A stretch of 64,000 nucleotides of DNA, taken from assembly GCA_038049695.1 (NCBI GenBank), contig CP142460.1:23315001-23379000 (forward strand), given 5' to 3'. The notes beneath the pieces are model-generated. The model was not told the origin of the DNA. It ran no database searches and was given only the letters and a program-made list of their open reading frames with translations. Numbering within the stretch: position 1 is the first letter of the stretch; each line of letters begins with the position of its first letter. Source of the stretch: Cinnamomum chago (lineage: Eukaryota > Streptophyta > Magnoliopsida > Laurales > Lauraceae). Positions 14,306 to 58,301 of the stretch are shown piece by piece. A program made the translations under genes and the position numbers.

Positions 14306-14313
14306 TATAAAAA
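14306..14313 (+). promoter_or_regulatory. TATA box of the antisense gene
   Basis: CTCTATAAAAATGG lies 299 bp before the ATG at 14605 and is followed by a C/T-rich leader. The related copy at 28373 has TATAAATA in the same place, 218 bp before its ATG. This indicates a promoter inside the element, reading against gag-pol. Confidence 0.7.
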
Positions 14314-14604
14314 TGGAAGCGCCCCCTTCCCTTTCTCTTTTACCTTAGCTGTTTGTCTGAGAAGGAGAGCTCTGTTGAAGACGAAGTTCTGCCACAGATT
14401 TTGCTGAAGAACGAACCAACTGATCTCGGGAACTTTTCTTTCTAGCCTTCTGCTTCTTCGTCCTCAGTAATCTTCAGCATCCTTTCTGTGAGTTCCATCT
14501 TCTCTCTCTGCTATTTCTTTGTGCCTCCTTTCTTCTCTTCGCTTTCAGAGGGTTTTTGGTCCCTTAGGGTTTTTCCATTTCTCGCCTCCTTTTGTTTTAA
14601 GAAA

Positions 14605-32911: not shown

Positions 32912-33409
32912 ATCCCCAGCTACAAGCCAAGTTGGGTGTTTTCTAAAAGGGTAAATTAGCGATAGATCCCTGATTATTGGGCTATAAAGTCTCGAGTACA
33001 GAGTATAACTGTTTAAGGCCTAAGGTCCCTTGCGCATGAGATTAATTCGGGCGGTGGTCCCTTGCATGACACATCATACTTTTTTATGACAAATTTGCTC
33101 TTCTAACCGTTTGAATGGGAGTCGTGCAATCTAATCCTGGTTTATAGCTTGAGCTCATTGTCTTTCCTTGATTACTGACGAATTTAAATGTCATAAGATG
33201 AGTTTTGGATCAAATTCCAAATTTTGAATTAGAGGGATTAATGATTGATGGAATTTCACATAGAATTTCTCAGTTTCTAGAGCAGGTCGTTTGTAGTGCG
33301 TGAGGATCCTTTTTCTTCTTTTTTTTCTTGTTCTTATTCTTCTGACGTTGCTACAAAGCACAATTCTTCTTAATATGAGTTTATAGATCTGATTCACAAC
33401 AAACTCAAA

Positions 33410-33625
33410 ATTCATCATTTCAATGAAATTCTTGAGGTAAGGATTAATGTTTTGATCTGAATTTTAGTTTAAATACTTCTTTTAATCTTGCTTTCTGAAA
33501 TTATTTCTTCTTTTGTTCTCAGTATTTCTGTTCTGATCTGAATAAAAGCAAACTCAGATTTTATCATTTCAATCAATTTCTTGAGGTAAGGATGAATGTT
33601 TTGATCTATTTTAGTTTAAGAAGAT
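33410..33625. repeat. 149-bp tandem duplication in the MULE leader
   Basis: The phrase CTTGAGGTAAGGATTAATG at 33431 recurs at 33580 with a few changes, with matching flanks. Each copy contains GAGGTAAG, a good splice donor, so the two may be duplicated leader exon/intron junctions. Confidence 0.65.
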
Positions 33626-33659
33626 CTTTAAATCTTGTTTTTTTAAATCTAGTTCGTTC

Positions 33660-33990
33660 TAGATGTGATTGAAATCAAATTTAGATAAATTCAGCTGTTA
33701 ATGTTGGATAAATTCATTTCAAACTCATATAAATCCATTTTAAAAGTCAGATAAACTCACTTCAAACTTTGATGAATTCATACCAATTACAGTCAAAGTA
33801 ACACCAAATTCAGATAAATTGATGCGAAGGTGAGATAAATTTACTTCAAATGCAGTTTAATCGATTTTATAAATAGATAAAATCATGTCAAACTTAGCTG
33901 AATTCATCTTTGTTAGATAAATTCGTATCATATAACTTCATATCAAACGCAGATAAAATGACACGAAACTGATATAGAGTCATGCGAAGT
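33660..33990 (-). repeat. degenerate motif array, family ATGAATTTATCTGA, minus orientation
   Basis: Read on the plus strand the words are CAGATAAATTCATTTCAAAC and variants (AGATAAACTCACTTCAAA, AGATAAATTGATGCGAAG, AGATAAATTCGTATCA). There are about 13 imperfect copies at spacings of roughly 20-35 bp. Their reverse complement is the same motif that fills the non-coding DNA of the MULE at 41644-58301. Confidence 0.8.
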
Positions 33991-34043
33991 GAGAGAGTAT
34001 TTTAGCTACAAATGTTGATGTGTTTTGATTTTATATTTATTTT

Positions 34044-35092
34044 TTGTATGCAGTGTTTAAAATGGCAAAACCGATTATGCTTCTTTGTAAGTTTGGTATG
34101 TTTACCAATGTTGTTATTTTCATTGATAGTATGAGAATGGATGATTTGGTTAACCAAATTTGTTGCAAACGGAAGACTTTGTTGCCCAACAATGTCTGTT
34201 TCACATATGCATTGCGTGGGCACCCGAGGTGTATACTTGACAATGACAGAGACTTGTTGAGCTTATCTATGTTGGCAGTTTCATTAGATTGGATCACGTT
34301 GATGTCTTTTATTTGTATCTGAATTATCTGAATATGGTAATGAGGACAATGAGGATAATGTGGGTGAATTTTGTGAAGACAAAATGGCAGTAGTGGCTAC
34401 AGATGTAGAGACAAATTTGCTTCCACAGTTTTGTTCACACAGGGAGAAGTTTCTTCTTTCTTCGGATTGCGTGAACGGTATTAGTCATGTTGGACAGAGG
34501 TTTGAAGGTGGGGCTTCTGAATTTTGGTATGTGCTATGCAAATATTCGATTGAGGTTGGGTTTGAGTTTGTGTATGTCAAGAATGATAAAGTAAGGATCA
34601 CAACTGTATGCTCTCATCGTAAAGCCTAGGATTGTATGTGGCGTGTTCATGCATCGCTTGAGAAGTCTAGTGGTTTTTTCTGCGTAAGGTCATTTGATAA
34701 TGAGCATACTTGTGGAGCAGCAGTTCATACATCTAAGAGTAGCCGGATTAGCTCTGAAATTGTTGTTGATTTAATGATGGATCATATTCGAGAGAAGCTA
34801 ATGACCAGACCCATTGATGTTGTGCATTATTTCCATGCAAATCATGGATTGACTATTACATATCATCATGCATGGTGGGGGGTTGAAATAGCCAGAAATA
34901 AGTTGTATGGTGATACATCACTTTCTTTTGACCATCTTCATTGGTACATTAATGTTGCTATGGAGACAAATCCAGGCAGTCTATTTGTATTAGATAACGA
35001 TGAATCTACCATGTGCTTCAAGCGTTTGTTTGTTTCATTTAATGCTTCGATTCGTGGATTTAATTATGTTCGTCCGCTATTGTTTCTAGGGT
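34044..35092 (+). pseudogene. MULE transposase, N-terminal half
   Basis: The 34044-34322 block has the N-terminal domain usual in MURA-like proteins (VCFTYALRGHPRCILDNDRDL). From 34360 come an acidic linker, then the MuDR DNA-binding domain (VGQRFEGGASEFWYVLCKYS, KVRITTVCSHRKA, then CMWRVHAS) and the following region (NEHTCGAAVHTSK, ITYHHAWWGVEIARNKLYGD, METNPGSLFVLDNDE, CFKRLFVSFNASIRGF, VRPLLFL). A TAG stop at 34627-34629 interrupts the DNA-binding domain, and the first two blocks are in different frames, which could be an intron. The family would continue with the DGT catalytic block, but here the sequence changes to copia gag at about 35092. The result is non-functional. Confidence 0.85.
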
Positions 35093-39868: not shown

Positions 39869-41643
39869 AACTAAATCGGTTGCTTGCTAGACTTCTAAGT
39901 CTAATGCTACACTTGGTGTGAATAGGCTATAGGTACACAATCCGCTTGCGTAAAGGTAAGGTGGTTGCTTTGGAACCGCGGGTTAGCTAGAGAGCTGCAT
40001 TGAGAACCTTGTTACATGTGTTGGGAGCTGACGCACCTTTTGATCTAGTTTCCTAATTTCCTGTATCTTCATATTGGCCCTTGTTGGCGTAAGGTTGTCA
40101 CAGTTAAGGGTTTTAAAACATGTTGTAAATTGTACCTTGGCGACTTTAATATTATACCTTGCTCTGTTATCCCCCGTCGCTTTGGAAAAATCTTAAATTG
40201 GTTAGTATATCTGACTTATGGAATTAGGGGTTGATTTAATATCTCAGTCACGGCCTGTAATTCGATAGAGCCTAGGAATCCGGGATGTGAGACTAGGCCC
40301 GCCTCATCTAATGAAATCCTCTTGTACGAGACATTGCCAAATCTTACTACATTATAAATGGGGTTCACTGTAAGATTGAACTTACACAAAATACATAAAG
40401 AACATATCATAAAAGCTTATTATTTTGTATATAAGGGCTACTTTCTGCGTATTATCCATTTCAATTCAAAGAGTAAACTTGTGGAGTTCAAATTTTTAGC
40501 CACTGCAAATAGAAATATAATTATTTTCTCTTAAAATATGCTACTTTTGTACGTCTCAACTAAAACAAAATTTTCTCTTATGACCATTATTCATCCCTAA
40601 CAATTAAACACCTTTTTATTTTTTTTGGTGATTCTTATCTAGATGAATGCAATGGGCCCTAGATTCAACTTAATTTTTAAGTTTGATATTTCACTCCAGT
40701 TTGACTTATGCAAATTGAAACCAAACTTTTTTAGTAAATCACATCACTCAAATCTTTCTATTGAATTTATATTGCATTATATGCCTTAGAAGTTAGAAAG
40801 GTCTTGATGTATAATCTCATGGTGTTTTATCCAACTTCAATCTCATGGTGGGGCCAATTCATGATAGATTAAAATTTGGCCAGGTTCCATAAAAAAGGAG
40901 GTAAGTCATGACTCAAGTGTGGTTCATACCAATTCATGGGCCCATTGTTACTACAAGGTTTGAAAAGGGAGAGATGGTCCGTACTTTCCATTGCTGGTCC
41001 CATTGTTATAAGGTTGCCTATTCAAACTAAAAACTGAGCGAGAAGAAGACGGCAATCTTCAAAAAAAAAAAAAAAAAAAATTAATGCATAAAAAATAATA
41101 CCTATTATTTTCTTTCGTTTCTTCATTTTAAAGTGAGCAGCGTCTCCTTAGTATCTTCTTTCGTATAAATTTCACATTAAAACTTTCACATTATTATCTT
41201 CTTTCATTTTTACCTATGTTGTAAAAATGCTGAAATTTCACATTAGAAATCTTTTCCCATTGCACAAATGAAGAGCAGCTTTGACGCCATCATTCGAAGA
41301 AACGGTTTTCAATTGCACGTTCTCTAAGAAAACTGTTTTCGATTGCACATTTTCTTACTATTTTTTTTTCTTTTCCCCATGAAGAAGTGCCGCACTTGAA
41401 CTGCTAAAAAAATAGTACCAGTTATACACAAACATTCCGAATAAGAAAATGGGGATTGGTGAGAGAAAGAGAGAGAGAGACTTCTATAGATGTGAAGGGA
41501 TAATTTACTTCAAAATAACTATAAGAAAAGATTGTGATTAGAAGACATCCAATGGAAATAACACTTAAAATATGAAAGGACAATTCTAACTTACATCACT
41601 TCATTAAAATATTATTTAAATAAAGTAGTAAATATTGTATTAT
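39869..41643. other. unassigned intergenic DNA
   Basis: The first 500 bp resemble U5-like retrotransposon DNA (GGGTTAGCTAGAGAGC, CCTAGGAATCCGGGATGTGA), so 37852-40350 may be an old LTR split by the solo LTR. The remainder is AT-rich, with a poly-A run near 41060 and a GA-repeat near 41465. No gene is seen. Confidence 0.45.
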
Positions 41644-42189
41644 TTTAGAAAGGGGCTTTTGGCCATAGGTCCCTCATCATTTTTGCTTTTACAGCCTAAG
41701 GTTCACAATATTTTATCGTACCGGCAATAGTCCTCTCATGAAAATGACGGAGTGAAAAAGACGAAGAGGCCCCTGTACACGTCAGCAAAAAGGCTCCGCT
41801 TAAAACCGCTTGAAACCATTTCATAGAAGCAGAAATCAGATTCATATGAATCGCAGAAGCAAAAGGCGAAAATGAAGGAAACTGCAAAAGCTAGAAGCAA
41901 ACTCAATTGATCGAATACCTCCATCATCTGAATCGTCCTCATTTTAAGGTTAGAAAAACTACTTCCATTCCTAAAAATAAGATGTACAATACATTTTCTT
42001 CTAAAAAAAAAACTAAAAACCTAATTTGATTTCGTTCTTCTCTAATTTTATCTATTCTTTATACTCAACTCTATGTAGACAATGGCTACAACAAATTCCT
42101 CGATTACCTCACGTCAAGAGAAAAAGCAAGAGAAAGTGCAACCAAAGAAAGAACAAGGTCAATCAAAAAATAGAGAGGGTTTTCTCAAT

Positions 42190-42546
42190 TTTAAAATCAT
42201 TTTATCTGACTTTGAAATCTATTTATCTGAGTTGTCGATCTTAGTCTGATATCAAATAAAAATGACTTTAAATGAATTTATCTGCACATTACATGATTTT
42301 ATCTGAATTTTAATTGCTATCAACTATGACACAATTTAATCTAATTTTCTTCTGAATGTATCTGTGATTCTTATAAAATACTATGAGTTTGGTATGATAA
42401 TAAGTGGATTTCGCATGAATTTATTTGAATTTGAAATGTATTAAACTTTTTTTTAAAAAAACTTTTTCTGAGTTTGCTGTTAATTTATTTGAGTTTTTGT
42501 ATATGTTATCGAACTTTGGCATGAACTTATCTGACTTTAAATTAAA
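42190..42546 (+). repeat. degenerate motif array, family ATGAATTTATCTGA, first block
   Basis: About a dozen imperfect copies in 350 bp, for example TTTATCTGACTTTGA, ATTTATCTGAGTTG, ATGAATTTATCTGC, ATGAATTTATTTGAATTTG and ATGAACTTATCTGAC. The copia element inserted in the last copy, and the array resumes at 52000. Confidence 0.85.
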
Positions 42547-42551
42547 CTTAT

Positions 42552-43365
42552 TGAAAGTCCTGGGATCCTAACCCTAGAGGGGGGGGGGGGGGGGGGTGAA
42601 TAGGGTGAGCTACAAGTTAGTGACCAATTATGCCCAATTTTAACTTCTTTAAAGTAAACTAGTCACAAGTGATGATTATCAAACAAAATGCGGAAGCTAA
42701 AAAGAATCACCACAACGCATTCACCATCACACAATGATTTATAGTGGTTCGGCCTCAATGCCTACATCCAAGGAGGGCCTCTTTATCCTCTTCAATTTCT
42801 TTAGGAATGAGACACTATTTATAGCCAAAAACTGCCCAACAGCTAGTCCTCGGTCGACCCCATGACCCACGGGTCGAGTTGGCCTTCAACGGTAAAAAAT
42901 TTGACCGTTTGAAAAAGTAGCCAACGGCTCTTTCCCGGTCGACCACGCAGTGGGCTCGGTCGACCGAGCATACTGTAGGTCGACCCGGGCCCAGGGACCA
43001 AATTCTCTTAAAATTCATATTTCAAAGTATTTCTTTAAGGGAACTTTTGGGCCACTGAATCAAGCTTGGAAACATGGTTTAAATCAAACTAAGAGGATTA
43101 AAGTCATGTAAACATAAAAAGCCTAAATTCATTTGAAAGATTTAAAACATAGGCTAGCTTGATTTATAAAAATTCTTTTTAAATCTAATTACATCCAAGT
43201 TAAAAAAAAAAAACATGCATAAATCAAGATTTCTACAAGTCTTAAAAAACAATACATGTATAAATCAAGATTTCAAGTTTTTCTAAATCAATGCATATGT
43301 GTAAATTCAAATGATACTAGAATGATAATGCATCCATCAAATTGCAATACACAAAATCCCTAACA
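42552..43365 (-). repeat. 3' LTR of the pol-less copia (left in the window)
   Basis: TGAAAGTCCTGGGATCC to ATCCCTAACA, with an 18-G run at 42579-42596, CTATTTATAG (a minus-strand TATA box) at 42815-42824, and a GGTCGACC palindrome cluster (42850-42985), including CTCGGTCGACCGAG at 42955-42968. The adjacent tract AAAGGGGGAGAT (minus strand) at 43366 onwards is the polypurine tract. Confidence 0.93.
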
Positions 43366-45414
43366 ATCTCCCCCTTTGCAATTTGATGGCAACTCACTCA
43401 CCACTGAATATACACACTAAGTCTTCAGCCCCCCCTAAGCTGGACAAGTCTTGAAATCTCTTGGATGCTTTTTCTCTTAGCTTGGGCTCTTGGACTTTTT
43501 CTTCATTCTTCTTGATGCTTGGAGCTTAATCATTCTTCAAGCTTTCTCTTCTTCTTTCATTCTTTAGCTCCAAAGCTTTCTCTTCTTTCAGCTCTCCCCC
43601 TTTGACCATGCACTCTCTCCCTTTGGCAAGATATGCATTCTCTCTCCCTGTAGAAGATCATACAAAATCTCCCCTTAGGAAGCTTGGACATTCTCTTCCC
43701 CTTTAGACAACTTGAATGGTCTCTCCCCCTTTGACATTAAATTGCAAAGGTACCTACACACATGAAATAAGGAAAATACCTTTTAGAAGCACATGTTAGC
43801 AAAAGAAATCGAAAATGAAATACATAACAGGTTATCATGTATGGTTAGTAGGCTAAAAGGGTTCAAAGCCAATATAAAGGTCAATTTGATCAAAACTAAT
43901 ACTTTCTATGAAGGTTTACACTCCCCCTCAATCCATTCTCTCCTTTTGTCAAACTTTTGACATAGATATAACTATTTGGTGCAAGAAGAAGATGGTTTAA
44001 CCAATTGAGGGTCAACTTCAAGGAAATGATTAGACACGTTTAACTATAGAGCACAATATGATCAAATTACCAAAAGAGAGCAAGGTCAAGGAGAAAAGCG
44101 ATCATGGATACCAATTGGAAAAACAAAGAATACCAATTGAGATTCAAAGATAAGTCTATTAAAACAATCACTCTAAAATGGAGTTATAAAGGATATAACT
44201 ATTAAGATAAATCCAAATTAGAGCTATCCATGATATTATGGGGTTTACTAAACATAGCATCAATTAATTTAACTATGAAAATCATATGCTATGAAAGTTT
44301 TGAAATCATTTCATTCAATAAAAAAATATGACTATCATGTGCAAGATGAGTGAAATGAAATTCAAACATGAAGCCAACCTCAACTAATAACCAACCAAGA
44401 TTATGAATATATAAACATGGTGGTAATGAGATTTACCTATATGAGCAAGAGAGGTGGCAAACATGAAAATTATGATGCTAATGAAATGTGACATGGAATA
44501 AAAATATGTGACTATGAAATTCAATATAATGTACACAAGGTCTATCACATTCTCAAGATAAGACATCATTTGGATATAAAATCAATCGAAAATTATATTA
44601 AATGAAACTAATTGAATATGACAACATGATTAATAGCAAGGATGTGACAAACACAAAATTCCATCAAGCATCATAAAAGGATATTCACCACTTTTAAAGA
44701 TATAACTAATGAGCATAGTGATGAACAAGATAAATTGCAATGCAAAAAGGATATAACTTGGTAATGCATGTAATTTTCAAGGTGACAAAATCATATGAAT
44801 TCAACAACTAAGATACCCATCAAACATATAGATATACGAGGGATGGATTTCAAAGAGTTTCATATGATCAAGATTACTACTATGATGTTGAAACATGTAT
44901 AAGGATGACATCACTTAGAGAATATACATGAATCAACATCATAACCATCCATAAAAAAAAGACTAGAAAGCATAAAGGATGGATTTGAGTTCTAGTATGG
45001 TATCTACAAATATAAATAAGATCACAACCATACATGGAACCAAATGACATTTGCATATAAAAAGAATATAACTAAATAAGCAAAGATGCAAATGGCTTAT
45101 AACAACAATCGATCATGAATAATCTAGCTATGAAAGCTTTTGTAATCACAATCAATTGAACATCAATAGAAATGTAATGCAAGAGATATAACTCAAAGTG
45201 AGCAAAAAACAAATCTAACATGATGAAATTATAATCAAATGATTTTGAAAACCATGAAATGTAACTAGAGATGTACATGAAGACAAAATCAATTGATCAT
45301 AAAGAAACAATGCATTTTAATAAATGTAACTATCAATGAACAAAATGCAAATGTATCGTGACCAACAATATGATTTAACTATAAAGGATAGGTTGGTCAA
45401 GGAGGTTCAAGGCC
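43366..45414. other. 3' non-coding half of the pol-less copia, with a degenerate repeat
   Basis: AT-rich DNA with no coding potential. The first 400 bp are rich in CTCCCCCTTTG-type tracts. From about 43960 to 45380 the word GATATAACTA and close variants recur many times (near 43968, 44187, 44694, 44747, 45059, 45180, 45256, 45318), about 50-120 bp apart, often with AAAAGG before and GAGCAA after. Confidence 0.6.
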
Positions 45415-46630
45415 TTAAGGTTTGTCTAAGTATCTAACTTTAGGAATCCACCTAAGGTCTTGAGAGGGTTGATCTTTGAGGTCTAGTTTAGAAGTCCCAC
45501 CAACTTTAGGAGATTTGACTTGATAAATTTTGAATTTGGACTTATCACCATGATATTTAGCTTTGGCTAAATTCAGTTTAGATTGGTGATTAGTCTTTTG
45601 AGGTTGGTGAGTTTGTTTCTTAGGGGATTGATTCATTTTTCTTTTCTTCTTATTTTCTCCCTTTATTTGACTTTTGAATTTTAAATTTAACTTTGTTACT
45701 TTCTTCAAAAGTTCTTTCATGTGTTGATTTAAGGGAGATAGGTTGAGAAGCTTTTTGTTCATAGATTCTTTTAAACTTGGTTTAACTTGTTTAAACTTTT
45801 TAGAATCTATCTTAGGAGACTCCATTTTAATTGATTTAACTTGTTTAATCTTTTTGGAGTCTTCTTTGATTTTTAGTGTCTTACCCTTCATAGATTTAGA
45901 TTCTACCTTTTTGGGTTCATAGATGGGTTTAGACACATGACTTCTTCTTCTTAGTTTGCACTCAAACTTAAAATGCCCTTCAATACCACAATAATTACAT
46001 TTAGTCATGGGCAAGGAAGAATGAGTACTAGAGAATGAGGACTCACTTTTCACAAATGTGTTGGTGAAGCTAGGGTCATGTGAAATATTCCTATCAAATC
46101 CAAGACCCGTCCTATCTCTTTGAGATTTACCCAATTTAAATAACTTTTCAAATTTCTTTTCACCTTGGGTAAATTGCACTCATACTTTTGTTTGTAGCTT
46201 TCAAGTTGAGTGACTTGGTTTATAAGGATTGAATTTTCATTTTTAACTTTTAATAGTTCATTTTCAATTTCCTTATATTTGATTAGTTCTTCATGAGCAA
46301 GTTTTAAATCAAATTTAAGTTCATTAATAACTTTAGATCCAAGTTCTAGAGTTTTTATCTTATTTTGAGAATTAGATAGATTTTCCTTAGAAATGGTCAA
46401 CTTGGATTCTAGGTTGTTAATGTTTTTGTCTTGCCTTTGTAATTGATCTCTTAGTTTTGAATTTTCCTTTTTAAGATCATCATTTCTTATCTTTAATTCA
46501 TTTAGATCTTCTTTAATATTAGATAGGTTATGCAAAGAGATCATAAACTTAGAGTCTAAGCATTGTATAACTTCTTCGTTTTCTCTAAGTTCATCTTTTA
46601 AAGAAACTAATTCTTTGTTTAGATTTTTAG
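45415..46630 (-). pseudogene. Gag-like coding region of the pol-less copia, C-terminal part
   Basis: Read on the minus strand from the nested LTR: a long coiled coil (LKKENSKLRDQLQRQDKNIN, LESKLTISKENLSNSQNKIK), then KRGLGFD-like sequence, a CCHC knuckle (CNYCGIEGHFKFEC near 45985) and a strongly basic, lysine-rich tail ending VRYLDKP at 45415. No UBN2 domain, protease or later pol domain follows. The remaining part of the same region lies at 50778-51010. It is broken at about one place besides the nested insertion. Confidence 0.75.
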
Positions 46631-46635
46631 ATTCT
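46631..46635. repeat. target site duplication ATTCT, left copy
   Basis: ATTCT lies before the TG at 46636 and again at 50778-50782 after the CA at 50777, framing the nested solo LTR. Confidence 0.93.
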
Positions 46636-49600
46636 TGTGAGAACCCGACCCCTAATCTCTTGGATTAGTGTTGTTTTATTTGTGGATTAGTTTTTTTTAG
46701 TGGGATTAGTATTTGTTGGGTTGAGTTTGTGAGCTAGAATGATTTTTCTCTAGTTTTGGGGAATTTTGAGGGCCTTTGTGATTAGTGGGACCCTTTGGGG
46801 GTTCTTTTAGTGACTTTGCGTGTGATTGGGAGGTTATTCGAAATTCCCAATAACTCTTGTTTTAGCCTCATTTGACTTATTTTGTTATTCTCTACAACTT
46901 TCGTGTTCACTCCGTACCCATTCGAAGCTCCGAAAATCAGTTTTTCCAGTCCGGAGGGCAAAATCGGTCTTTTCACATTGAATCTGGACCCAAATTTCGA
47001 GATCTCAGAACCATGCCAAAATTATACTTTTTGGAAACTAGATTTTATGAGAAACATTTTTCTCTTCTTCGTCGATCACATCCGAGGCCCACAAATAGAT
47101 GTTTGACCCTTGGCAAGTTTTAAGTGTGGTGGGGCCCACACCCACCCATTATAAGATGTCTCTACCCTCTCTTTCTCCCTCATTTCTCCACTCCATCGGC
47201 TGCAACTCCCCAGCTACAGTGCCAGCAGCCATTCTTCTTCTTTTCTTCCATTTCTCTTGCTCTAATGGAGCCTCCAAGCCACCAATCCGATGAGGGAACT
47301 CCGGCAACTTCTTCTCCTTCATCTCCTCTCTTGTTTGACACCATTTTCGTGGGAAACCAACGTGGGCAGCCCCTATTGCAAGCTTCTTCTTGTTGACTCA
47401 TGACTCTAGAGGTAAGGACTCCTTCCCATTTTCCTTGGATGTGCAATGGCTTTCCCTTAAGTTCTATTTCCTAGCTTGGTTTGAGCCCATTCCTTGTCTT
47501 TCATTTGTTTGACCCATTTTAGGGTTTGTTTTGGGGTTTTTGTAGAGATTGTTGATCTTGAGTTTGAGAGGTGATTAGAGGCTTGATTTGCTAGATTGGA
47601 ACCCAAGGCAAGTGGATGAATGGATGGTTTGAATGTTATCAAAGTTTTATGAGAAATCCTAGATTTATTACTTGTTCTTGATAATTTGACATATGCTTCA
47701 CATATGCTTCTTGCTATATTTCTATTGATTTCGAAAATGCATATTAATGGTTTTTGTTCTCTCTTGTTAAACCTCTTGGAAATATATGCATTCCATTGGT
47801 CAAAGTTTGCTCATATGGTTTTATAAGGAATAGGATTGGTTTTGCCATTAAAAGTTATGTTTATTAGTTGCATTGATTTGAAGTAAGATGCTCATTTGAT
47901 GAGTTTTGCTAAATCATCCATTGAAATGGAAATGTGATCAATAGACTTTGTTTATCCATAGATTTTGGCTCAAATGAACCCTTGCATATGACTGGGATTC
48001 TTCTCCTTGTTTGGGGTTAAATGTGGGAAAGGAGGTGTTTAAATTTAATTTTTCATTAGAGTTTTAATGAGAATTTTAAGTGATTATGGAAGAAAAATGT
48101 TAGTGGTTTAAGTGTCGGAAGGAAAGGAAAAAGGGGAGAAAAATCAAGTCTTTCCCGGACCTGCTATACGCCCAGGTCCGATCGATCAGACATGCAGGCT
48201 GATCGATCGGACTGTCGTTAACTGTGAGGCTTTTCGAGCTGATCGATCGGACTGTCATCCGATCGATCGGACCTGTCCGTAACTGGGACAGGAATTCAGC
48301 CCAGTGAAATTTGATATTGTTTTTTTTTTTTGAAACAATTGTGCTTTCTATGAGTCCTAGGGGTATATACATTAGTGTTAAGACTAATTATGCCCTAATC
48401 TAAGGTCTTCAGGACTAGGGAACTAAAAGAAAAGAATGGTGATGATTTAGGCACTAATTCTTGGTTCTAGGTGGGACCTTGGCTACCCTCCTTGGACTCA
48501 TTTGACCATATGTGAGGGCATCTTGAGCCGATGCTCTTCACGGTTGGTTCGGATGCATCGAAGTTCAATCTATTTCAATCTTGAACGGGATGGAACGACA
48601 CGATATTTTCTTCATACCTAAACGCAAGGTCTATTTCCTTGGGTATCGTGAATTCTATTCCTTTCGGTGACTGAGTAGGTTGCTCGATGGTTCCGGGTTA
48701 ACATCATACTTAGGATGGACCGTTTATAGTCTTGATCTTCTATGGTAACACCTAGTCCTAACCATAAGCTCATTTTAAGTTTTAAAAATAATAAAAGTGC
48801 ATAAGGAGCCCGAAATGTCTTCAAACTCAAAGAGTACCAAGTGATTATTATAATCGACATACGGGACCCCTATTCACTTAAATAAATCTTGAAACCAGTA
48901 TTTTTACCCGAAATTGTAATAGTTCATTGTTTCACCTCATTTCCAAGATTTGCATCACATGACTTGTTTTCCCGAAAGCATTGAAGTTACACTAGTAACA
49001 ATTATTTGTCCCGGAATGTATTGCCCGACATGAAATGACAGCGTGCCCTTGAGCACCCTCGTTTTACCCGTTTATTTATTGTACTTGATTTACTTGCATA
49101 TGTCCCGATTTGTTATTTGACCTATGAGTCGGCATCACTAAGCTTGGATAACCTTGTCGGTTTGATCCACCGACTTGGAGATCCCCCTCCCGTCCCGCCA
49201 GCTGCAGTTTGGATCCCGATACCCGGTTATTGCCGTGGTCCCGTCCCGATACCCGGTTCGCTACCGTGGTCCCGTTCCCGTATATTTATATTGTATATAT
49301 GATTTACGTTGAGTCTCCTCACCTTGTGTGACTGAGACCAACGTCCCGTTATACTCTTGTCACTTCGGTGATAGAGGACTTAGCTTTTTGTGATTGCCAT
49401 CTTGCCAGTTCCCGATTCCTTGGATACCCGACACGTTTTATATTGCTTACTTGCTTTCCGATAAATGATTCGTTTCCTTTATGAAAGTTGTTATTTAAAC
49501 AAGTGTTCATATTCTCCAATGTAAATTCAGTTATTATTATATTGTTTTATGTTCTTTGTACACGCACATGTTTTAAATGAATGCCGGTTGGGTGAATACC

Positions 49601-50777
49601 CATGCTTTTACTTATGTTTCAAACGATCAATGATTTTGCTAGATTTATATGATTACACATGTTTTAAAGGAATACCCGAATTGTTAAATATTCGTGCTTT
49701 GTTTTGAATGACATTTGGTTTGTCAGATATCTATGTGTATACCTGTTTTAAATGAATACCCGAATTGTTAAATATCCATGCTTTGAAATACGTTTTAAAT
49801 GACACGCGTTTTGCCAGATTCCTATGTTTATACCTGTTTTTAAATGATACCCGATTTGTTGAATACCCATGCTTTGAAATATGTTTAAATGAACTTTAGT
49901 TCTGTCAGATTTCTTTGGTTACACATGCTTTAAATGAATACTCGGTTTGTTGTATACTTATGTTTTTACTTAAGTCTCAAATGAACGTTTGTTTTGTCAA
50001 ACCACTATATTTACACATGTTCCCGACGAACACCCGATTGTCAAATATCTATGCCTTTATGGATGATGTAAATGACCAGACATTTTATTAGATCTTAATG
50101 TTTTTCCCACGTTTGAAACGAATACATGTTTTGTCCGAGATCCATGATTTTTCACCCGATTAATTATATGCAGCATTTGATCGAATAACATGATTTATCT
50201 TATGTTTTATTCTTCAGTATATTTGTTATCTTTTCATCCACCTGCCAGACCGTCGTGTCTGACCCACTACTTTTGGTACTCAGGTTCAGATTTCTTCGTC
50301 CCGAGATGAGTGCTTGGGTTGGCTGTGGAGCCATGTTTTGCAGGTTGTTTTGTCGGCTATGTCATGTAGACATTGAGCTTGACATCGGAGCTACGTCATA
50401 TTTGGGGTAGTGATTATAGCTTATTGTTGTATGGATTTTATTAGCCTTTTTCTTGGGATTCTTAATTAATGTACATTGATAATTGTAACTGGAACATATA
50501 TGGGAATGTAATATCCTGTTACTGTCAGCTCTGTAATTTATTGTGATGGTTTACTCCAGTCTGATATGATTCTTGATATGATAGCTATATGCTAAAGGTT
50601 GAGTGCGACGCGGAATCCGATGGCCACGGACTCCGGGTCGCAACGCCACGAAAGCTTCTGCAAAATATCCAGAATGTGTTGGAATGTGTTGTCTTCATAT
50701 ACGCGGATCTTGGGAGAAAAATATATTTATGCTTAATCCCATTCGCGCCCCCGAGGTTCCGGTTTGGGGGCGTGACA
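46636..50777 (+). repeat. Tekay-type solo LTR, 4142 bp, nested in the copia element
   Basis: TGTGAGAACCCGACCCC to GGGGGCGTGACA with flanking ATTCT. Blocks are shared with the LTR at 6696-9688: TACTTTTTGGAAACTAGAT (about 47025), CATCCGAGGCCCACAA (about 47080), and the CCTGCCAGACCGTCGTGTCTG phrase (about 50240) that matches 9155. Landmarks include a CATTATAAGA box (about 47147), a GATCGATC palindrome cluster at 48170-48275, and a series of CCCGA(A)TTGTTAAATA-type repeats with a roughly 90-bp period between 49560 and 50160. All open frames within it are incidental. Confidence 0.93.
48170..48275. repeat. GATCGATC palindrome cluster
   Basis: GTCCGATCGATCAGAC, CTGATCGATCGGAC (twice) and the perfect palindrome TCCGATCGATCGGA (48258-48271) occur within about 105 bp. 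Confidence 0.85.
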
Positions 50778-50782
50778 ATTCT

Positions 50783-51010
50783 TCTCTTAATTTTTTATTT
50801 TTCTTATTAAGCTCTAAGGACAAAGTATATAATTCCTCATAGGCTTGTTGAAGGTTATCTTCATTATAATCATTTTCTTCTTCTTTTAAATCAAATTGAG
50901 ATTCATTAATTTAAGGGTTTGAATCTCCAATAGAAGGAAGAAGGAGGGGTCTAGAAGAATCTACACAAGAATCTAAACAATCTATAAAAGTGGAATCCAT
51001 TCTAATGATT
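50783..51010 (-). pseudogene. Gag-like coding region of the pol-less copia, N-terminal part
   Basis: Read on the minus strand, an ATG near 51000 opens MDSTFIDCLDSCVDSS, followed by an acidic stretch and AYEELYTLSLELNKKNKK, which leads into the nested LTR. The start is an inference from position after the leader. The element lacks the UBN2 domain that copia Gags normally have here. Confidence 0.6.
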
Positions 51011-51042
51011 TTCATGAAAGCACAACATAGAGCATGAGGGTT

Positions 51043-51140
51043 TTGACTCTAGGTTTTTACACCTAATCAAGAGTTCCAAAACACTTGGGTCTTGACTCTA
51101 GGTTTTTACACCTAATCAAGAGTTCCAAAACACTTGATCC
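51043..51140. repeat. 49-bp tandem duplication in the copia leader
   Basis: TTGACTCTAGGTTTTTACAC and the following AAGAGTTCCAAAACACTTG occur at 51043 and again at 51092, with almost no change. It lies between the primer site and the gag start. Confidence 0.9.
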
Positions 51141-51156
51141 TAAAATAGAGCATGAG

Positions 51157-51170
51157 GCTCTGATACCAAT
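51157..51170 (-). other. primer binding site of the pol-less copia
   Basis: On the minus strand TTGGTATCAGAGCC follows the LTR end, matching initiator tRNA-Met. Confidence 0.9.
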
Positions 51171-51999
51171 TGAAAGTCCTGGGATCCTAACCCTAGAAGG
51201 GGTGAATAAGGAATAGGGTGAGCTACAAGTTAGTGACCAATTATGCCCAATTTTAACTTCTTTAAAGTAAACTAGTCACAAGTGATGATTATCAAACAAA
51301 ATGCGGAAGCTAAAAAGAATCACCACAACGCATTCACCATCACACAATGATTTATAGTGGTTCGACCTCAATGCCTACATCCAAGGAGGGCCTCTTTATC
51401 CTCTTCAATTTCCTTAGGAATGAGCCACTATTTATAGCAAAAAACTGCCCAACGGCTAGTCCTCGGTCGACCCCATGACCCCCGGGTCGACCTGGCCTTC
51501 AACGGCCAAAAATCTGACCGTTTGAAAAAGTAGCCAACGGCTCTTTCCCGGTCGACCGCACAGTGGGCTCGATCAACCGGGTCCATGGGCTCGGTCGACC
51601 GAGCATACTGCAGGTCGACCGGGGCCCAGGGACCAAATTCCCTTAAAATCCATATTTCAAAGTATTTCTTGAAGGGAACTTTTGGGTCACTAAATCAAGC
51701 TTGGAAACATGGTTTAAATCAAACTAAGATGATTAAAACCATGAAAACATAAAAAGCCTAAATTCATTTGAAAGATTTAAAACATAGGCTAGCTTGATTT
51801 ATAAAAATTCTTTTCAAATCTAATTGCATCCAAGTTTAAAAAACAAAACAGGCATAAATCAAGATTTCTACAAGTCTTAAAAACAATACATGTATAAATC
51901 AAGATTTCAAGTTTTTCTAAATCAATGCATGTGTATAAATTTAAATGATGCTAGAATGATAATGCATCCATCAAATTGCAATACACAAAATCCCTAACA
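51171..51999 (-). repeat. 5' LTR of the pol-less copia (right in the window)
   Basis: Same ends as 42552-43365. The G-run is only four bases here. A minus-strand TATA box lies at 51428-51437, and the palindrome cluster (51470-51625) has CGGTCGACCG at 51549 and CTCGGTCGACCGAG at 51590. This copy has a further 27-bp block in the cluster. Confidence 0.93.
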
Positions 52000-52004
52000 C
52001 TTAT

Positions 52005-52440
52005 CTCTGTATTTCTATGAATTTATCTGTGTTTTATGTTAATTAATCTGTGTTTGCTGTCAATTAATCTAAGTGTGACTTGAATTTATCTAAATTTGAA
52101 AGTAATTTATCTCAGCTTGCTGTGCATTTATATTAATTTGATCTGAACTTTTTTTTTAACTTTGATGTGAGTTTATATGAATTTATCTGTGTTCCAAATC
52201 ATAACTAGTTCACAAAAAAGTTATGTACCATTTATATGAATTTTTTCTGCATTTGATATAAAATTATCTGACTACATTAGGTTAGGTTTGAATAGATTTG
52301 GCTTGGTTTATATGAATCTGGTATAAAATTATCTGTCTATGGTGTGAATTTATCTGACTTTGTTATGGTTTTATCTAACTTTGCTTCTGGACTGGGATGA
52401 GTTTCATATAATTTTATTTGAGTTGTACATGTACCCTAAC
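52005..52440 (+). repeat. degenerate motif array, family ATGAATTTATCTGA, second block
   Basis: About 15 imperfect copies, for example ATGAATTTATCTGTGTTT, TTGAATTTATCTAAATTTG, AAAATTATCTGACTACA, GTGAATTTATCTGACTTTG and GGTTTTATCTAACTTTG. It is continuous with the array at 42190-42546 once the copia insertion is discounted. Confidence 0.85.
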
Positions 52441-54641
52441 AGCTGAAAGCACACAAAATAGAAAGAAGGACACCAAAAAGGGAAACCAAGCAAAGCCACA
52501 CTGGTAATTTAGATCAAACTTGGTATCAATAGTCAAACTGTTTGACAACATCAAAAGAATAATAACCGCTGCACATAAAGTTGAGCTGAAGAAGACACCT
52601 TTCTGGTTTCTTATAAATTCCATATTGAACCAAAATGTTACAGAGAATAGATGGAAAATATGATAAAGACATCATGCGAATTCTAAACACATACAACAGC
52701 GCGGAAGGAAAATTTAAAATCAGAAGCCAGTATGTGTCGTTCACATCAGATGACATCTCTCTAATATTTGGAATACCCCATGGATCAAAGACCTTAGATT
52801 TGAAATATGCAAAGAAAAAATAATCGGAATTCATAACAAGAAGATTCTCAAACATTACAAGAATATCAGCTCCAAAAATAAAGGAACAATTGAATTTTGC
52901 ACTCAATGGAGCTACCGAAGTTGATGTGGCCGATGTGTCCAAGCTAATATGCCTTTACATCCTTGTGACATTGTTTTTTTCAACACATGACAACTCAATA
53001 GGATGGCCATACGTCAGTTATGTTGAGAATTATGTTGAAATGAAAGATAATGCATGGACAGAAGAGATAACAAAGTTTCTCATGCAATCAGTTCACACTA
53101 GAAATGATGGTTCAGATAAAGTAATTGGTTGTCTATTTGCACTACCGGTAAGATAAACAAACAGCCTTTTTACATCTATAATTTTACAACTTACCAATAA
53201 ATTTGTAAATTAAACTTGACTATGTTATTGTGTCTCAATTTGAACAGTATTGGTTATGTGAACACACGTCGTTGTTGGAGCCAATCAAACCTAGTGAATT
53301 CCCTTTATTGATGAAGTGGGATCTTAAGGGCTTAAACAACGCAATGCAGAAAAACCCGCTGAATATTGAATTGAACATTCTTGATGTTAATTAATATATT
53401 GGTAAGTTGTCTAAATTTTTTTGATTAGGTAATACTATATAACAGATAGTATAGATACATTTATCTAAATTTTATATCCCTTGTTGTTATTAATAAACAA
53501 TGTCTCACACTTCAAGTAATCGTTGGTAAATTGGAGAGGACATTGCATGAAGATAAATGCTTCCTGACATATGTGAATAGGAGCAGTGCTGATGATAATC
53601 AAATAACTAAGGAGGAAGCTAAAATAAACAACAAAGAAATTATTGAAGGAGTAGAAGAAGGACATGTGCAGTATGTCGACCTTAATGATGATGTTGAGAT
53701 TAATAAATCCATTGAACAATCAAAATCAAAGGAACATGACCCCAGCTAATTTCAACTGGCCCAAACAATGGAAACATTGTTAATTTCTGAATTAGAAGAA
53801 CAAAGAGAAAATGAAGGGCAAGAAGAAATGGCCGAGACTGAAGAAAGAATTGAATTTCTCACATTTCCTTCAGAGTGGGAACAATATGAATAAACAGAAG
53901 AACAAACGGATATAGTTGTAGAGAATGTTGTAAGCGATGTAATTGGAAGCACAAGTGAATCATTGATTGGAATACCACCAACAAAGCTAGCTGAATTTGA
54001 AGGAGACAATATTAAGAAAATGTCCGAGCAAAGTCAGCCATCTCCAATAATGGAAAACACAGAAATCAAAGAAATCATTGAAGAAAAAGAAAGGGCAATT
54101 TCACTTGTTCATCAGCTAAACAGAGAGAAACAAGACTCCCAAGCTCAACTTGACAAAATCATATTTGAATTGAAAAGAGCAAAAGAAGAAAATTGTAATC
54201 TACAAAATGAAAGCATGGAATTGGGAAGAAGGCTAAGCATCTTGACCAAAGAAAGAGATGATGTGGTTTCATTAACTGGGAAGGTCATAAGTGAAAATGT
54301 TGAGCTAGAAAAAGAGAACAATAACCTGAAAAGCAAGCTCGAAAATTCATCTCTTGTGGTCAGCTCCCTTAATGAACAGCTAAAGCAACTGTAAAGTCCG
54401 GGGATCCGAACCCTAGAGGGGGGGTGAATAGGGTGAGCTTCAATTATGACCAATTTTAAACAAATTTAACTTCTTTAAATTAAACTAGTCACAAGTGGTG
54501 ATTACAAATAAAATGCGGAAGCTTAATAACAACAATCACCACAAAGCAAGCACCATCACACAAGGATTTATAGTGGTTCGGCCTCAATGCCTACATCCAC
54601 TACCGGCTTGTGATCCAACACCCCACCGGATTTCCACTATT

Positions 54642-54778
54642 TATGCTTTTCAATAGGCTAAGCAATAACCTTTACAATTATGCTTTTCAAGGCTAAGCAA
54701 TAACCTTTACAATTATACTTTTCAAGGCTAAGCAATAACCTCTACATTATGCTTTTCAAGGCTAAGCAATAACCTCTT
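54642..54778. repeat. 35-bp tandem repeat, four units
   Basis: TTTTCAAGGCTAAGCAATAA with neighbours recurs with starts of the core near 54659, 54694, 54729 and 54763. Confidence 0.92.
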
Positions 54779-55278
54779 CAACCACAAGGTTGGTTATCTC
54801 TCTAATTAGTGTCTATAATACACTTGATGGAGATTCAATTAAGCTCATTACAATGCCTCTTAATTAGGCGGATATGGAAGTGAAAAACTAACTCACACAC
54901 ACACTAAATGAATGCAAAGATGTATGCTCATGATGTGTGTGTGTGATGTCCTCAATCATTTTTAAAATGAAAGCTCATAAATGTATGCCTAAGGCTTTTG
55001 AAAGTTTTAGCTCATAAAACATTTATGATTGAGGAAATGCAAGTCACATGTTAAAAGTAACAACTTGTTAATGATGTCAAAGATTCACAAGTTGTATGTA
55101 ATTAATTAGCTCTAAACATGTGATGCATAGGGATGTCAATCAAATCAACAATGTAGCTAATAAACATAAAAATAGATTTGATTGAAATTAGGGGACAAAT
55201 CATATGTAATTATAAATACAACTTGAATATGATGTACCAATCAATGCAAAACAAGTTGTGAAACTTTAAAACAAAATA

Positions 55279-55905
55279 CATATGATTTGTAAAGTTTGTT
55301 GAATCCAAAACATAAGATACATTTGAAAGATATTTTCTTATGATGGAAAACAACAACCAAAGATTCAACCAAGTATATGAATCATGTTACATATAATTTC
55401 AAAGATTCTTTCATTAACATGATCTACTCAGATTTACCAAATAAAGTACTACTTGGATTGAATCAATGGTGATGCATCCAAAACAATAGATCAATTCAAA
55501 ACATAAAACATGCTAAGGACACGACACATCATAGTTTAACATGCTACTAAAGTTTTACCAAAGATAAAGCAAAAACATGAAAACATATGATTTGTAAAGA
55601 TGTTGAATCCAAAACATAAGATAGTTTTGAAAGTGATTTTCTTATATTGAAAAACAACAACCATAGATTCAACCAAGTATAGGAATCATGTTACATATAA
55701 TTTCAAAGATTCTTTCATTAACATGATCTACTTAGATTTACCAAAAATAAAGTACTACTTGGATTGAATCAAATGGTGATGTATCCAAAATAATAAATCA
55801 ACTCAAAACATAAAACATGTTAAGGACACAACACTTCATACGTAGTTTATCATGCTACAAAAGATTTACCAAAAATAAAACAAAGCATGAAAACATATGA
55901 TTAAG
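55279..55905. repeat. about 305-bp tandem duplication inside the solo LTR
   Basis: CATATGATTTGTAAAG at 55279 recurs at 55584, and CATATGATTAAGG at 55894 starts a third, partial unit. Whole units share phrases such as AACAACAACCA and TTCAAAGATTCTTTC. Confidence 0.9.
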
Positions 55906-56869
55906 GAAAGTAGAGCCTACTTGGTGATTTAACTTCATTAATCCAAACTTTAGCTTTCCTAATGATCCCCTTAATCCCTTAGTTCATTTCCCTTTGATTT
56001 GTCTCAAAACCCCTCAAGGAGGGCCTTAAAATTCCCAACTATTGGCAAAGGAAAGAACTCATATATATAGCAAAAACAGTCCAACGGCTAGTCCCCGGTT
56101 GACCTGGCAGCAGGGCTCGGTCGACCTGGCCTTCACAATGGCTATATTTCTGACCGTTGGAGCTTCAGAGACCCTGTTGACCTGGGACCCGGTTGACCGG
56201 CCACACTGCTGGCCGACCCCCTGGGACCAAAATTCCCATAATTGCATATTTTCAAAGTATTTCTTGGGGGAACTTTTGGGCCACTAAACCAAGCTTGGAA
56301 ACATGTTTTAAATCAACCTAAGATGTTTAAAAACATGAAACACAAAAAGCCTAAAATGATTTGAAAGATTTAAAACATAGGCTTGCTTGATTTCTAAAAC
56401 TCTTTTAAAAAACAAATGCATCCAAGTTTTAAAAGCAAATCATGCATGAATTAATACTTTTACAAATCTTAAAAGCAATGCATGAATAAATCAAGATTTC
56501 AAGTTTTTATAAATCAATGCATATGTGTGTAAATCAAATGATGCTTGAATGATTATGCATCCATCAAATTACAATCTACAAAATTCCTAACAGCAACTAC
56601 AGCAGCTATCGAAGAGAAATTCTTCAAGAGCTGCACACGCAGAAGAGGTATTAAAAGTATTGAAATATAAAGTGCAATAACCGAGGCATCAAATTTTGAA
56701 TTAGAAAACAAGTTAAAAGAAGCTATACTTCTTCATGCAGGCATAGAGATAAAATTGGTTGAAAAGAGTTTGAAATTTTTTTATCATCCAATAGCAAAAC
56801 AAATGATGGGGGAGCAGCCTCCTCAACCAACAAACAAAAGTAAAACTGAAAAGGTATTTCTGACTTTTC

Positions 56870-57062
56870 AAATGAATTTATCTGAGCCTTAGATGATTTT
56901 ATAGAGGTCTGATAAGAGTTTATTTAATTTTGACATGAATTTATCTGAGATTGATATGAATTTGTGGTTTATATTTCAATTTCTCTTAGTTTGGTAATGA
57001 ATTTATTTGAATTTTCTATGAAGTTTTGGGTGTGTTTGATAAAAATTTATTTGACTATTGTA
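56870..57062 (+). repeat. degenerate motif array, family ATGAATTTATCTGA, third block in an intron
   Basis: About eight imperfect copies (ATGAATTTATCTGAGCC, ATGAATTTATCTGAGATTG, ATGAATTTATTTGAATTT). It follows a GTATTTCTG splice-donor-like site and lies between coding pieces of the Ulp1-like gene. Confidence 0.75.
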
Positions 57063-57516
57063 TGATTGCACTTCAATTCTATATTTAAATGGAGCATTAC
57101 ATATTAATGGATACTTCAGGTTAAAAAGGTGCCACAATAATCATCAATGGTCAAACGAGTAAAGAAGCGATGAGAAGCAGCATCAAGCAATATTCCAGAG
57201 CCAGAATAGAAGAAGGCTAAGAAGCAAAAGAATGTACTAAAAGATAAAATGGTTGCTCAGTCAGATGACTTTGTTGACATAAATGAGTAATTGCAGCTCA
57301 AAGCTACCACTAAATCAGAGAAGAAGAAACCATTTAAGCTCCCAAAAAACTCAATCACCAAACTGTTGAATGAAGCTGATAAGAAGAATTTAAAGCTCAT
57401 ATATGACACAGAAGGATATAAGTAAGTTGATATCATGTATAACTCTAGAAAGTTGTCAGTAACATTATAAACAATCTAATAACATTTCACATGTACAATT
57501 GTAGTGCAACAGTTTA

Positions 57517-57535
57517 GGGGGGGGGGGGGGGGGGG
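57517..57535. repeat. 19-G homopolymer
   Basis: An uninterrupted run of G in AT-rich DNA within the Ulp1-like gene region. It could form quadruplexes, or its length could be unreliable. Confidence 0.9.
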
Positions 57536-58301
57536 TGGAGAAAGTGAAAACAATGTGTTGTATGAGGACAAAATTGCAATCCTATCTAGCACTGATATAT
57601 CAAGTAGTGTAAGAAACCTACTACAATAATATCGTATGTTTATTGAATGTTTAAATAATATCTGTTTTAAAACGTACGTAACGTTATGTATCTGTAATCC
57701 ATCAGGTTATTGATAGTTATACACAAATGCTATACAAGGAGCAAACAAACCTTGAAAATGATCTCAATAAATTGCGAAAGGAGGGCCTACAGGAGGACGA
57801 AAAATCATATTTCATCAGTAGCCTTTGCTAGGTAACACAAAAAAACTTTTTGCCATGTCTGCAATGGATTTCACTAAATGACATTAATACTCTTAAATTC
57901 TATATTGTGTAGACAATGCTCACTGTTGAAAACAAAAATATGAGAGAAACCATCCTCAATCATCAGATCTCACCATATAAAATGCAGAATCATAGATTCG
58001 TCCACTTTCCAATGAACTCTAATGGAAAGAACAAAAATACAGCACCATTCCATTGGACTCTATTACTACTTGATTGAAAACAAGGCCAGTGGATGTGTTG
58101 TAATTTGAGATACTATGGAGAGTTTTAATGAAGTGTCAGGCATGATTATGTGTTGGAATTACTGTCAACACATTGTCACAAATATTGCAAACAAGTAAGG
58201 TGCAGTACAGCAACACAGCTATGAACCAAATGTTGTTGTGCAAATATCTTCACATCTATCATCTGGATTAAAAAGTGGTCAACATGACTTTTGTGCATCA
58301 G

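Follow-up and report, generated by a model that had tools for sequence, protein, structure and literature searches.

A Ulp1-bearing MULE family of Cinnamomum chago with helix-phased motif arrays and VANC-like anatomy

We have analyzed a MULE family represented in a 64,000-nucleotide stretch of the Cinnamomum chago genome, hereafter the window. Its members are two-gene elements with 9-bp target-site duplications (TSDs) and no long terminal repeats, and both their introns and their intergenic DNA carry arrays of AATTTATCTGA phased with the helix. The copy in the window is a dead, inverted and twice interrupted member of this abundant family. Judging from sequence, the family probably works like the VANDAL/VANC system of Arabidopsis, that is, by sequence-specific anti-silencing with a new motif. 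The term VANC-like refers here to a likeness in anatomy and not to membership of VANDAL/VANC. A preliminary description of the window had read the arrays as possible recognition sites of an anti-silencing protein, a reading that the present analysis partly supports. For an abundant transposon family, this offers a candidate reader gene together with the word that it may target and the rule by which the sites are phased.

The broken copy in the window

By sequence comparison with its relatives, among them copies A to D, the window MULE is a broken copy, split by an inversion and interrupted by two later insertions. Its parts are as follows.

32940-32948, minus strand: 9-bp TSD TTTCTAAAA beyond the 3' end of the MULE, matching the 9 bp at the 5' end as reverse complement
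32949-35089, minus strand: displaced 3' part of the MULE (homology to copy B 11569-13948, reversed; TSD match)
33661-33950, minus strand: array 4, preceding the transposase remnant (5 matrix sites run with the element and 1 against it; 0.12 expected by chance)
34030-35089, minus strand: transposase remnant of the 3' part, homologous to copy A 14252-15312 (transposase domains found in copy A)
41643-41651, plus strand: 9-bp TSD TTTTAGAAA at the 5' end of the MULE, identical, once reverse-complemented, to the 9 bp beyond the 3' end
41652-58095, plus strand: 5' part of the MULE, holding the two later insertions (79-90% identical to copies B and C by blastn)
42190-42546, plus strand: array 1 (9 sites with the independent matrix described below, all forward; 0.14 expected by chance)
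42552-51999: LTR retrotransposon within the array, foreign to the MULE (97% identical terminal repeats; junctions; TSD CTTAT at 42547-42551 and 52000-52004)
52000-52440, plus strand: array 2, the continuation of array 1 (10 matrix sites, all forward; 0.10 expected by chance)
52508-54389, plus strand: accessory gene, coding parts for the N-terminal domain and coiled coil, with stops and introns (frames; homology to copies B, C and A; relatives)
54390-56592: second TG...CA insertion, foreign to the MULE, splitting the accessory gene (TSD GCAAC at 54385-54389 and 56593-56597)
56593-56854, plus strand: further part of the accessory gene, ending at a putative splice donor (homology to copy B; donor read by eye)
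56870-57062, plus strand: array 3, in an accessory-gene intron (5 matrix sites, all forward; 0.07 expected by chance; intron read by eye, in agreement with copy A)
57914-58095, plus strand: beginning of the Ulp1-like exon, containing a stop and truncated where homology ends (homology to copy B)

The preliminary description had placed the element at 41644-58301. Its 5' end is at 41652, homology to its relatives stops at 58095, and its 3' end lies at 32949-35089, in a part whose displacement we infer to be the result of an inversion. The insertion at 54390-56592 is related to the LTR of the retrotransposon at 42552-51999. A MULE with a Ulp1-type gene had been correctly recognized, but that gene is broken, with its Ulp1 exon lying after array 3 and cut at 58095.

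Motif arrays had been reported at 42190-42546, 52005-52440 and 56870-57062, and all three were recovered. Allowing ATGAATTTATCTGA as many as 3 mismatches on either strand gives 9, 10 and 4 forward sites in these stretches, against 0, 1 and 1 reverse sites. An independent motif matrix, for which four copies elsewhere in the genome supplied all 250 training sites and which was applied with a score cut-off of 8, found 9, 10 and 5 forward sites and 0 on the opposite strand, against means of 0.14, 0.10 and 0.07 under a Markov-1 null; at the same score, the control regions of the window gave 0 forward and 1 reverse sites (1-30000) and 1 and 0 (43400-51200). The total is about 24 sites in the three stretches, not the approximately 35 copies first counted, and the spacing, given as roughly 20-35 bp, is often 21 bp or a multiple thereof. 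Nor are these three separate places, as had been supposed: the first two are a single array cut apart by the LTR retrotransposon, and a fourth array lies on the other strand, within 32949-35089. As the array region is intron 1 in subfamily-2 copies, array 1 of the window probably occupies that intron of the accessory gene too. The arrays had been viewed as flanks between which the gene sits; array 3 is inside one of its introns.

Genes, motif and array design in the family

Gene matches to the family number at least 150 in the genome. In the same genome, a rubisco large-subunit query met only partial matches, most of them short or with stops, on contigs of nuclear size. Full copies of the family are about 10 kb long, and in them a Ulp1-type gene is convergent with a MULE transposase, arrays lying both within introns and ahead of the transposase. 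The TSDs match as reverse complements at 9/9 positions in the window, and at 8/9 in copies B and C and 9/9 in copies A and D (A and D by eye). No inverted-repeat match was found between the ends of copy B at E 1e-3, and end similarity in the family is weak (about 25 bp, by eye). The transposase of copy A, to which the window remnant is homologous, is of MULE type, with matches to PF10551 (9e-12), PF03108 (2.6e-6) and SWIM (5.5e-7).

For the accessory protein, a composite of exons from copies B and A matches PF02902 with an E value of 2e-8. The 94-aa Cys-bearing exon of copy A by itself has no family match, and support for a Ulp1/C48 domain is moderate for this reason. The 255-aa exon and the coiled-coil exon have no Pfam match up to E 10, DUF1985 and DUF287 included, and the N-terminal domain is likewise unmatched in Pfam. 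A DUF1985 search of the genome gave no match, and its control equally gave none. The window family has no match to the plant mobile domain; a profile comparison with that domain covered 38 columns (E 0.0041, probability 8%) and is to be read only as a lead. The AlphaFold2 model of the 255-aa exon has a mean pLDDT of 53 and a pTM of 0.59, and a Foldseek comparison of this model with the PDB returned nothing at E 0.001 or better.

The motif proved to be concentrated in this family, as the preliminary description had anticipated. Across the genome there are 548 occurrences of the exact 14-mer and 19 of the reversed word, and all of the 14 clusters inspected, among 32, belong to the family. De novo word counts in related copies also recovered it: TTTATCTG ranks first in subfamily 2 (335 vs 2.0; reverse complement 0) and ATTTATCT in subfamily 1 (61 vs 1.2; reverse complement 39 vs 2.4). 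The two subfamilies share a common core despite 33-39% protein divergence, and thus provide no evidence that motif and protein co-evolve within the window family. Multi-match clusters are single-stranded in 21/21 cases, and those linked to a gene lie on the strand of the gene in 11/11, the genes being those among the matches listed. All three clusters remote from any gene among the matches listed are also of the window family; two of them, each holding more than 50 exact cores, are deletion derivatives which have lost most coding sequence and kept the arrays.

Within arrays, the best spacing period in a scan of 8-40 bp was 10.4 bp over 408 pairs and 10.5 bp over 2131 pairs, and 20- and 22-bp steps are present. 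The core TATCTGA is 0.91-0.97 conserved, compared with 0.76-0.85 for the spacer, in 7/7 arrays, which share history. This conservation, the helical phasing and the keeping of arrays in gene-deleted copies were further anatomical predictions that held. Sites in the reverse orientation number 14 in copy B and 27 in copy C. It is very improbable that the arrays are neutral minisatellites, expanded by slippage and functionless. Their copy number does differ among copies, with 15-30 sites upstream of exon 2 in 20/21 loci and no site there at the remaining locus, L019, but the greater conservation of the core speaks against this reading, as does the fact that one core recurs across several separate arrays within an element and across two diverged subfamilies.

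Array position bears on another reading, in which the element's own transposase would bind the arrays, for synapsis or promoter control. We consider this unlikely. Window arrays 1 and 4 are about 0.5-0.7 kb from the two element ends and one array lies upstream of the transposase, as such a role would have it; moreover, Spm TnpA and MuDR MURA are element-encoded proteins themselves tied to methylation loss of their own families (PMC10398659), as proposed here for the accessory protein. MURA is a transposase acting on TIRs (PMC10398659), whereas the arrays of the window family are largely internal and its accessory gene is separate. Against a transposase role, arrays occur in internal introns and, in copy A, also between the genes, at kilobase distances from both ends (in subfamily 1 the between-gene array is nearly absent, copy B having 2 sites there), and those of the second class described below sit mid-element.

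Any 21-bp tandem unit yields a 10.5-bp periodicity without selection. The 21-bp unit, 7 codons long, also gives rise to open frames on the minus strand that reach 180 aa; a coding repeat was considered and rejected, and the reading frame is not kept in the arrays, because 20- and 22-bp steps occur.

Proposed mechanism and known systems

Under the anti-silencing reading that we favour, the accessory protein would bind the arrays via its non-Ulp1 part, many molecules lining one face of the helix. Once bound, it would strip silencing marks off the element and reactivate the element genes, and it would act in trans on deletion derivatives that retain arrays; motif specificity and density would limit the effect to the family. 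Gene-less copies with arrays are natural trans-tests.

Ulp1-type VANCs are reported to vary in domains. For KIU, Sasaki 2022 (EMBO J) reportedly describes helical periodicity and gene-less client copies, as in the window family. KIU, the Ulp1-carrying VANC genes of VANDALs, share with this family a Ulp1 domain on the accessory protein and family-specific motifs in non-coding DNA (PMC13317346), although genome and motif are different; the likeness is one of described features. VANDAL21 (Hiun)/VANC21 and VANDAL6/VANC6 of Arabidopsis are, like the window family, MULEs with degenerate terminal repeats and a 9-bp TSD, in which introns and the DNA upstream of the transposase gene hold dense, same-oriented short motifs of varying copy number (PMC5735166). 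Their motif, however, is YAGTATTAY or AGTTGTCC/AGTTGTAC rather than AATTTATCTGA, and their genes are VANA, VANB and VANC (PMC5735166) rather than the two seen here. Unlike VANC21 and VANC6, the window accessory protein has a Ulp1-like C-terminus and no Pfam match to DUF1985 or DUF287.

Ulp1-bearing MULEs of grapevine also resemble the window family, with a Ulp1-like region that is sometimes opposite in orientation to the transposase, and others are cited from melon and rice (PMC2528002). The word "tandem" is absent from the text of the grapevine paper as accessible, which under that word holds no motif arrays.

Plant mobile domain/Ulp1 MULEs

A second class of MULEs, with plant mobile domain/Ulp1 genes, has clear arrays at 13 of the 16 loci sampled. 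The motifs differ from that of the window family and are mostly palindromic (GTCGATATCGAC, CCGATATCGG and others); the arrays sit mid-element and adjoin the 3' end of the plant mobile domain/Ulp1 gene. L054 has 3 palindromes only, its TRF match being a different repeat, and L060 a weak repeat; L056 has no array in the 2 kb taken, though its Ulp1 exon is 97% identical to that of L047. L042 has no transposase frame of at least 100 aa, and L043 is the one negative control.

In this class the motif follows the protein clade, each Ulp1-MULE clade having its own; among the clades are L041 with L057, L042 with L051 and L059, L046 with L052, L053 and L055, and, singly, L045 and L047. The expectation that the motif tracks the accessory-protein subfamily is thus borne out here but not in the window family, where two subfamilies have one core. 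A host factor would not explain such clade-specific motifs. It is accordingly improbable that a host or element factor binds the arrays so that they act as enhancers of transcription, as splicing elements or as boundaries, with methylation unaffected, even though intronic and promoter-proximal placement would suit this and core conservation and phasing would suit any cooperative binder.

Self-targeted anti-silencing may, we tentatively suggest, be general to Ulp1-bearing plant MULEs, with at least two designs in one genome. One would use the CpG-poor, helix-phased, directional 21-bp arrays of the window family, and the other CpG-rich palindromic arrays whose motif arms vary in parallel with the protein from one clade to the next. 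On this view, the plant mobile domain that these MULEs have captured would act as the module that targets anti-silencing. MULE-borne plant mobile domains (PMC5418596, PMC6446971) are the closest known counterparts of the second class and differ from the window family, which has no match to that domain. Ikeda et al. speculated that they may serve anti-silencing (PMC5418596), and the accessible portions of these papers mention no array or target motif. Among titles and abstract openings in the literature we met no arrays in plant mobile domain/Ulp1 MULEs, and we do not claim that they are unpublished. Motif arms that follow the protein clade make the speculation of PMC5418596 directly testable, and the second class supplies several protein-motif pairs for learning how specificity is encoded.

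Sequence change within these arrays bears again on the minisatellite reading. Palindrome columns change less than the other columns of the same arrays (23/948 vs 145/2370, summed over 8 of 12 loci, the other 4 being without a perfect-palindrome column and L052 without a unit), which argues against neutrality. CpG transitions, at 0.061 per site, are just 1.7-fold other C/G transitions (0.037), which is evidence neither way and alone no proof of protection or selection. The array of L047 is CpG-poor, with an O/E of 0.26.

Motif arrays in the window element

Four arrays of the motif ATGAATTTATCTGA (core TATCTGA) are associated with the MULE in the window, and the element is interrupted by two insertions:

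42190-42546, forward strand, array 1
52005-52440, forward strand, array 2
56870-57062, forward strand, array 3
33681-33928, opposite strand, array 4
42552-51999, LTR retrotransposon within array 1/2, TSD CTTAT
54390-56592, second insertion, splitting the accessory (Ulp1-type) gene, TSD GCAAC

Across the genome (1.06 Gb, 14 contigs), in which the window is C10:23315001-23379000, ATGAATTTATCTGA has 548 exact occurrences, versus 19 for the reversed word. Allowing up to three mismatches, arrays 1-3 contain 9, 10 and 4 forward sites versus 0, 1 and 1 reverse sites; array 4 has 11 on its own strand, and 9 further sites in the window fall outside the four arrays. When 250 sites from four other copies, with the window sequence excluded, were used to build a 20-bp matrix, it found 9, 10, 5 and 5 sites in arrays 1 to 4 (opposite strand 0, 0, 0 and 1), where the null means were 0.07-0.14. 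Control stretches of 30 kb and 7.8 kb yielded 0 forward/1 reverse and 1 forward/0 reverse sites. The arrays that the preliminary description placed in three stretches are thus real, but they hold about 24 motif copies by our count and not the roughly 35 proposed.

Comparison with two relatives, copies B (C9) and C (C4), which show 93-94% identity across the aligned parts, demonstrates that arrays 1 and 2 are a single array. Homology to B ends at window 58095 and picks up again, reversed, at 35089-32949. The 9-bp sequences flanking the element, TTTTAGAAA before the 5' end and TTTCTAAAA beyond the 3' end, are perfect reverse complements of each other. On the simplest reading of the sequence, a single MULE insertion would later have been divided by an inversion, one of whose breakpoints fell within the element. 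One minus-strand frame of the LTR retrotransposon weakly matches the CCHC zinc knuckle (E 0.0019, which misses the cut-off), and the retrotransposon also holds a 91-bp tandem repeat (49617-49973). Long G runs near 42580 and 57520, one within the LTR and a shorter run at the matching place of the second insertion, are possibly homopolymer expansions or assembly errors.

Anatomy of the window family

A 110-aa N-terminal piece of the accessory protein matched all 150 places scored (the best 150 of 243 candidates), the window included. Among these, 8 places at 81-91% identity form subfamily 1 (which includes B and C) and 141 at 60-69% form subfamily 2; many of the latter retain an open 255-aa exon. 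Between the two subfamilies, the N-terminal proteins differ at 33-39% of positions. In copy A, of subfamily 2, the accessory gene consists of a short exon 1, a motif-bearing intron 1, the N-terminal domain exon, a long coiled-coil exon, another motif-bearing intron and the Ulp1 exons. The array between the genes comprises about 35 units, and the MULE transposase, with matches to PF10551, PF03108 and SWIM, is on the opposite strand with an array upstream of it. Copy B likewise carries arrays in the introns and ahead of the transposase, but its intergenic stretch contains no more than 2 sites. Exons of B and A joined into a composite matched PF02902 (Ulp1) at 2e-8; the 94-aa Ulp1 exon of copy A scanned alone gave no domain match, nor did a Pfam search with the accessory N-terminal domain. 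Terminal repeats are short and degenerate, and the TSD is 9 bp (9/9 in the window, 8/9 in B and C, 9/9 by eye in A and in D, a copy with deletions).

The arrays as candidate protein targets

Unseeded word counts ranked TTTATCTG top in subfamily 2 (335 versus 2.0 expected; reverse complement 0) and ATTTATCT in subfamily 1 (61 versus 1.2; reverse complement 39 versus 2.4). In alignments of TRF units TATCTGA was conserved at 0.91-0.97 versus 0.76-0.85 for the spacer in 7 of 7 arrays, which share history. When periods of 8-40 bp were scanned, the preferred site spacing was 10.4 bp in the window copy, B and C (408 pairs) and 10.5 bp in A and the deleted copies D, E and F (2131 pairs). Part of this periodicity follows from the 21-bp tandem unit by itself; spacings of half a unit (10-11 mod 21) strengthen it further. 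Reverse-oriented sites in B (14) and C (27) speak against a protein-target reading.

The first 100 listed exact motif hits formed 32 clusters, of which 14 were looked at. Among these listed hits all 21 multi-hit clusters were on one strand only, and the 11 clusters adjoining a listed family gene were each on the strand of that gene. Three further clusters that were fetched (D, E and F) all belong to the window family. E is without the N-terminal and coiled-coil exons; D and F have a common internal deletion that took most of the accessory gene and transposase, yet 51 and 54 exact cores in forward orientation remain in them. The identical internal junction of the two deletion derivatives points to an amplified non-autonomous lineage that kept its arrays:

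C1:90271001-90279000, deletion derivative (L048)
C2:3129501-3136500, deletion derivative (L050)

In the stretches fetched upstream of exon 2, 20 of 21 subfamily-2 loci contain 15-30 sites and one (L019) contains none; where exon 1 was found (11 of 21) the sites fall between exons 1 and 2. CpG is nearly absent (O/E 0-0.17) from the arrays in copies A and D and in the window, except for window array 1 (three CpG, O/E 0.63); the coding parts of A have O/E 0.33-0.69.

Anatomy, family concentration, core conservation, phasing and array retention in gene-less copies are direct observations in the window family. In a mechanism modelled on VANC21, an Arabidopsis VANDAL anti-silencing protein, the accessory protein would read the array and lift silencing. 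Work by Sasaki in 2022 reportedly identifies the determinants as the sequence of the motif, its density and its helical periodicity, and the clients as non-autonomous copies; if so, the window family would add one more member, distinguished by a new word, to a known kind. As described in PMC5735166 and PMC10398659, YAGTATTAY is the word bound by VANC21; the motifs are densely packed, share one orientation and occur in introns and upstream of the transposase gene VANA, and VANC expression leads to loss of methylation. According to a review (PMC13317346), VANCs that carry Ulp1 (KIU) recognise motifs of their own. The well-organised window arrays are probably VANC-like, a likeness that does not assign the family to VANDAL.

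A second class of Ulp1 MULEs

What makes these data interesting is the abundance of the family, its phasing and the natural trans-tests it offers, but most of all a second class of MULEs in the same genome. This class bears on the speculation, voiced in PMC5418596, that captured plant mobile domains serve MULEs as a means against silencing. Loci were drawn from the PF02902 list (best 150 of 978 candidates scored), seven of 8 kb and ten of 2 kb. One 8-kb locus (L043) has a Ulp-type gene with neither MULE features nor array found; in the remaining 16 loci the Ulp1 exons are related, with L058 at 31-37% identity only. The plant mobile domain was matched in all four N-terminal pieces scanned, each from an 8-kb locus (L041, L044, L045, L046). 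An opposite-strand transposase-like frame is present at 5 of 6 8-kb loci and was confirmed by Pfam at both loci scanned (L041, L045).

Directly downstream of the Ulp1 gene, 13 of 16 loci have a clear tandem array (L041, L042, L044-L047, L051-L053, L055, L057-L059); three palindromes are present at L054 and a weak repeat at L060, and L056 has no array within the 2 kb fetched. The motifs are mostly palindromes centred on GATATC, or inverted pairs. The tracking of motif with accessory-protein subfamily, proposed as a test in the preliminary description, is seen in this class rather than in the window family: here Ulp1 exons at least 86% identical have common motif arms (L041, L057 and L054; L042, L051 and L059; L046, L052, L053 and L055) and more divergent clades have different arms. 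L056 and L047, with Ulp1 exons 97% identical, cannot be compared in this respect because L056 is without an array; given that identity, it is possibly a natural array-loss copy. Summed over 8 loci, perfect-palindrome columns are changed at 23/948 sites versus 145/2370 elsewhere in the same arrays. In 12 of the 13 second-class arrays measured, CpG O/E is 1.04-2.45 and higher than in both flanks, L047 being the exception.

In the Ulp1 exons of B, A, L041, L042 and L046, Asn follows the Tyr of the HW...(Y/F)(D)S motif (YNSL/YNSM), at the position where Asp is expected in Ulp1 proteases.
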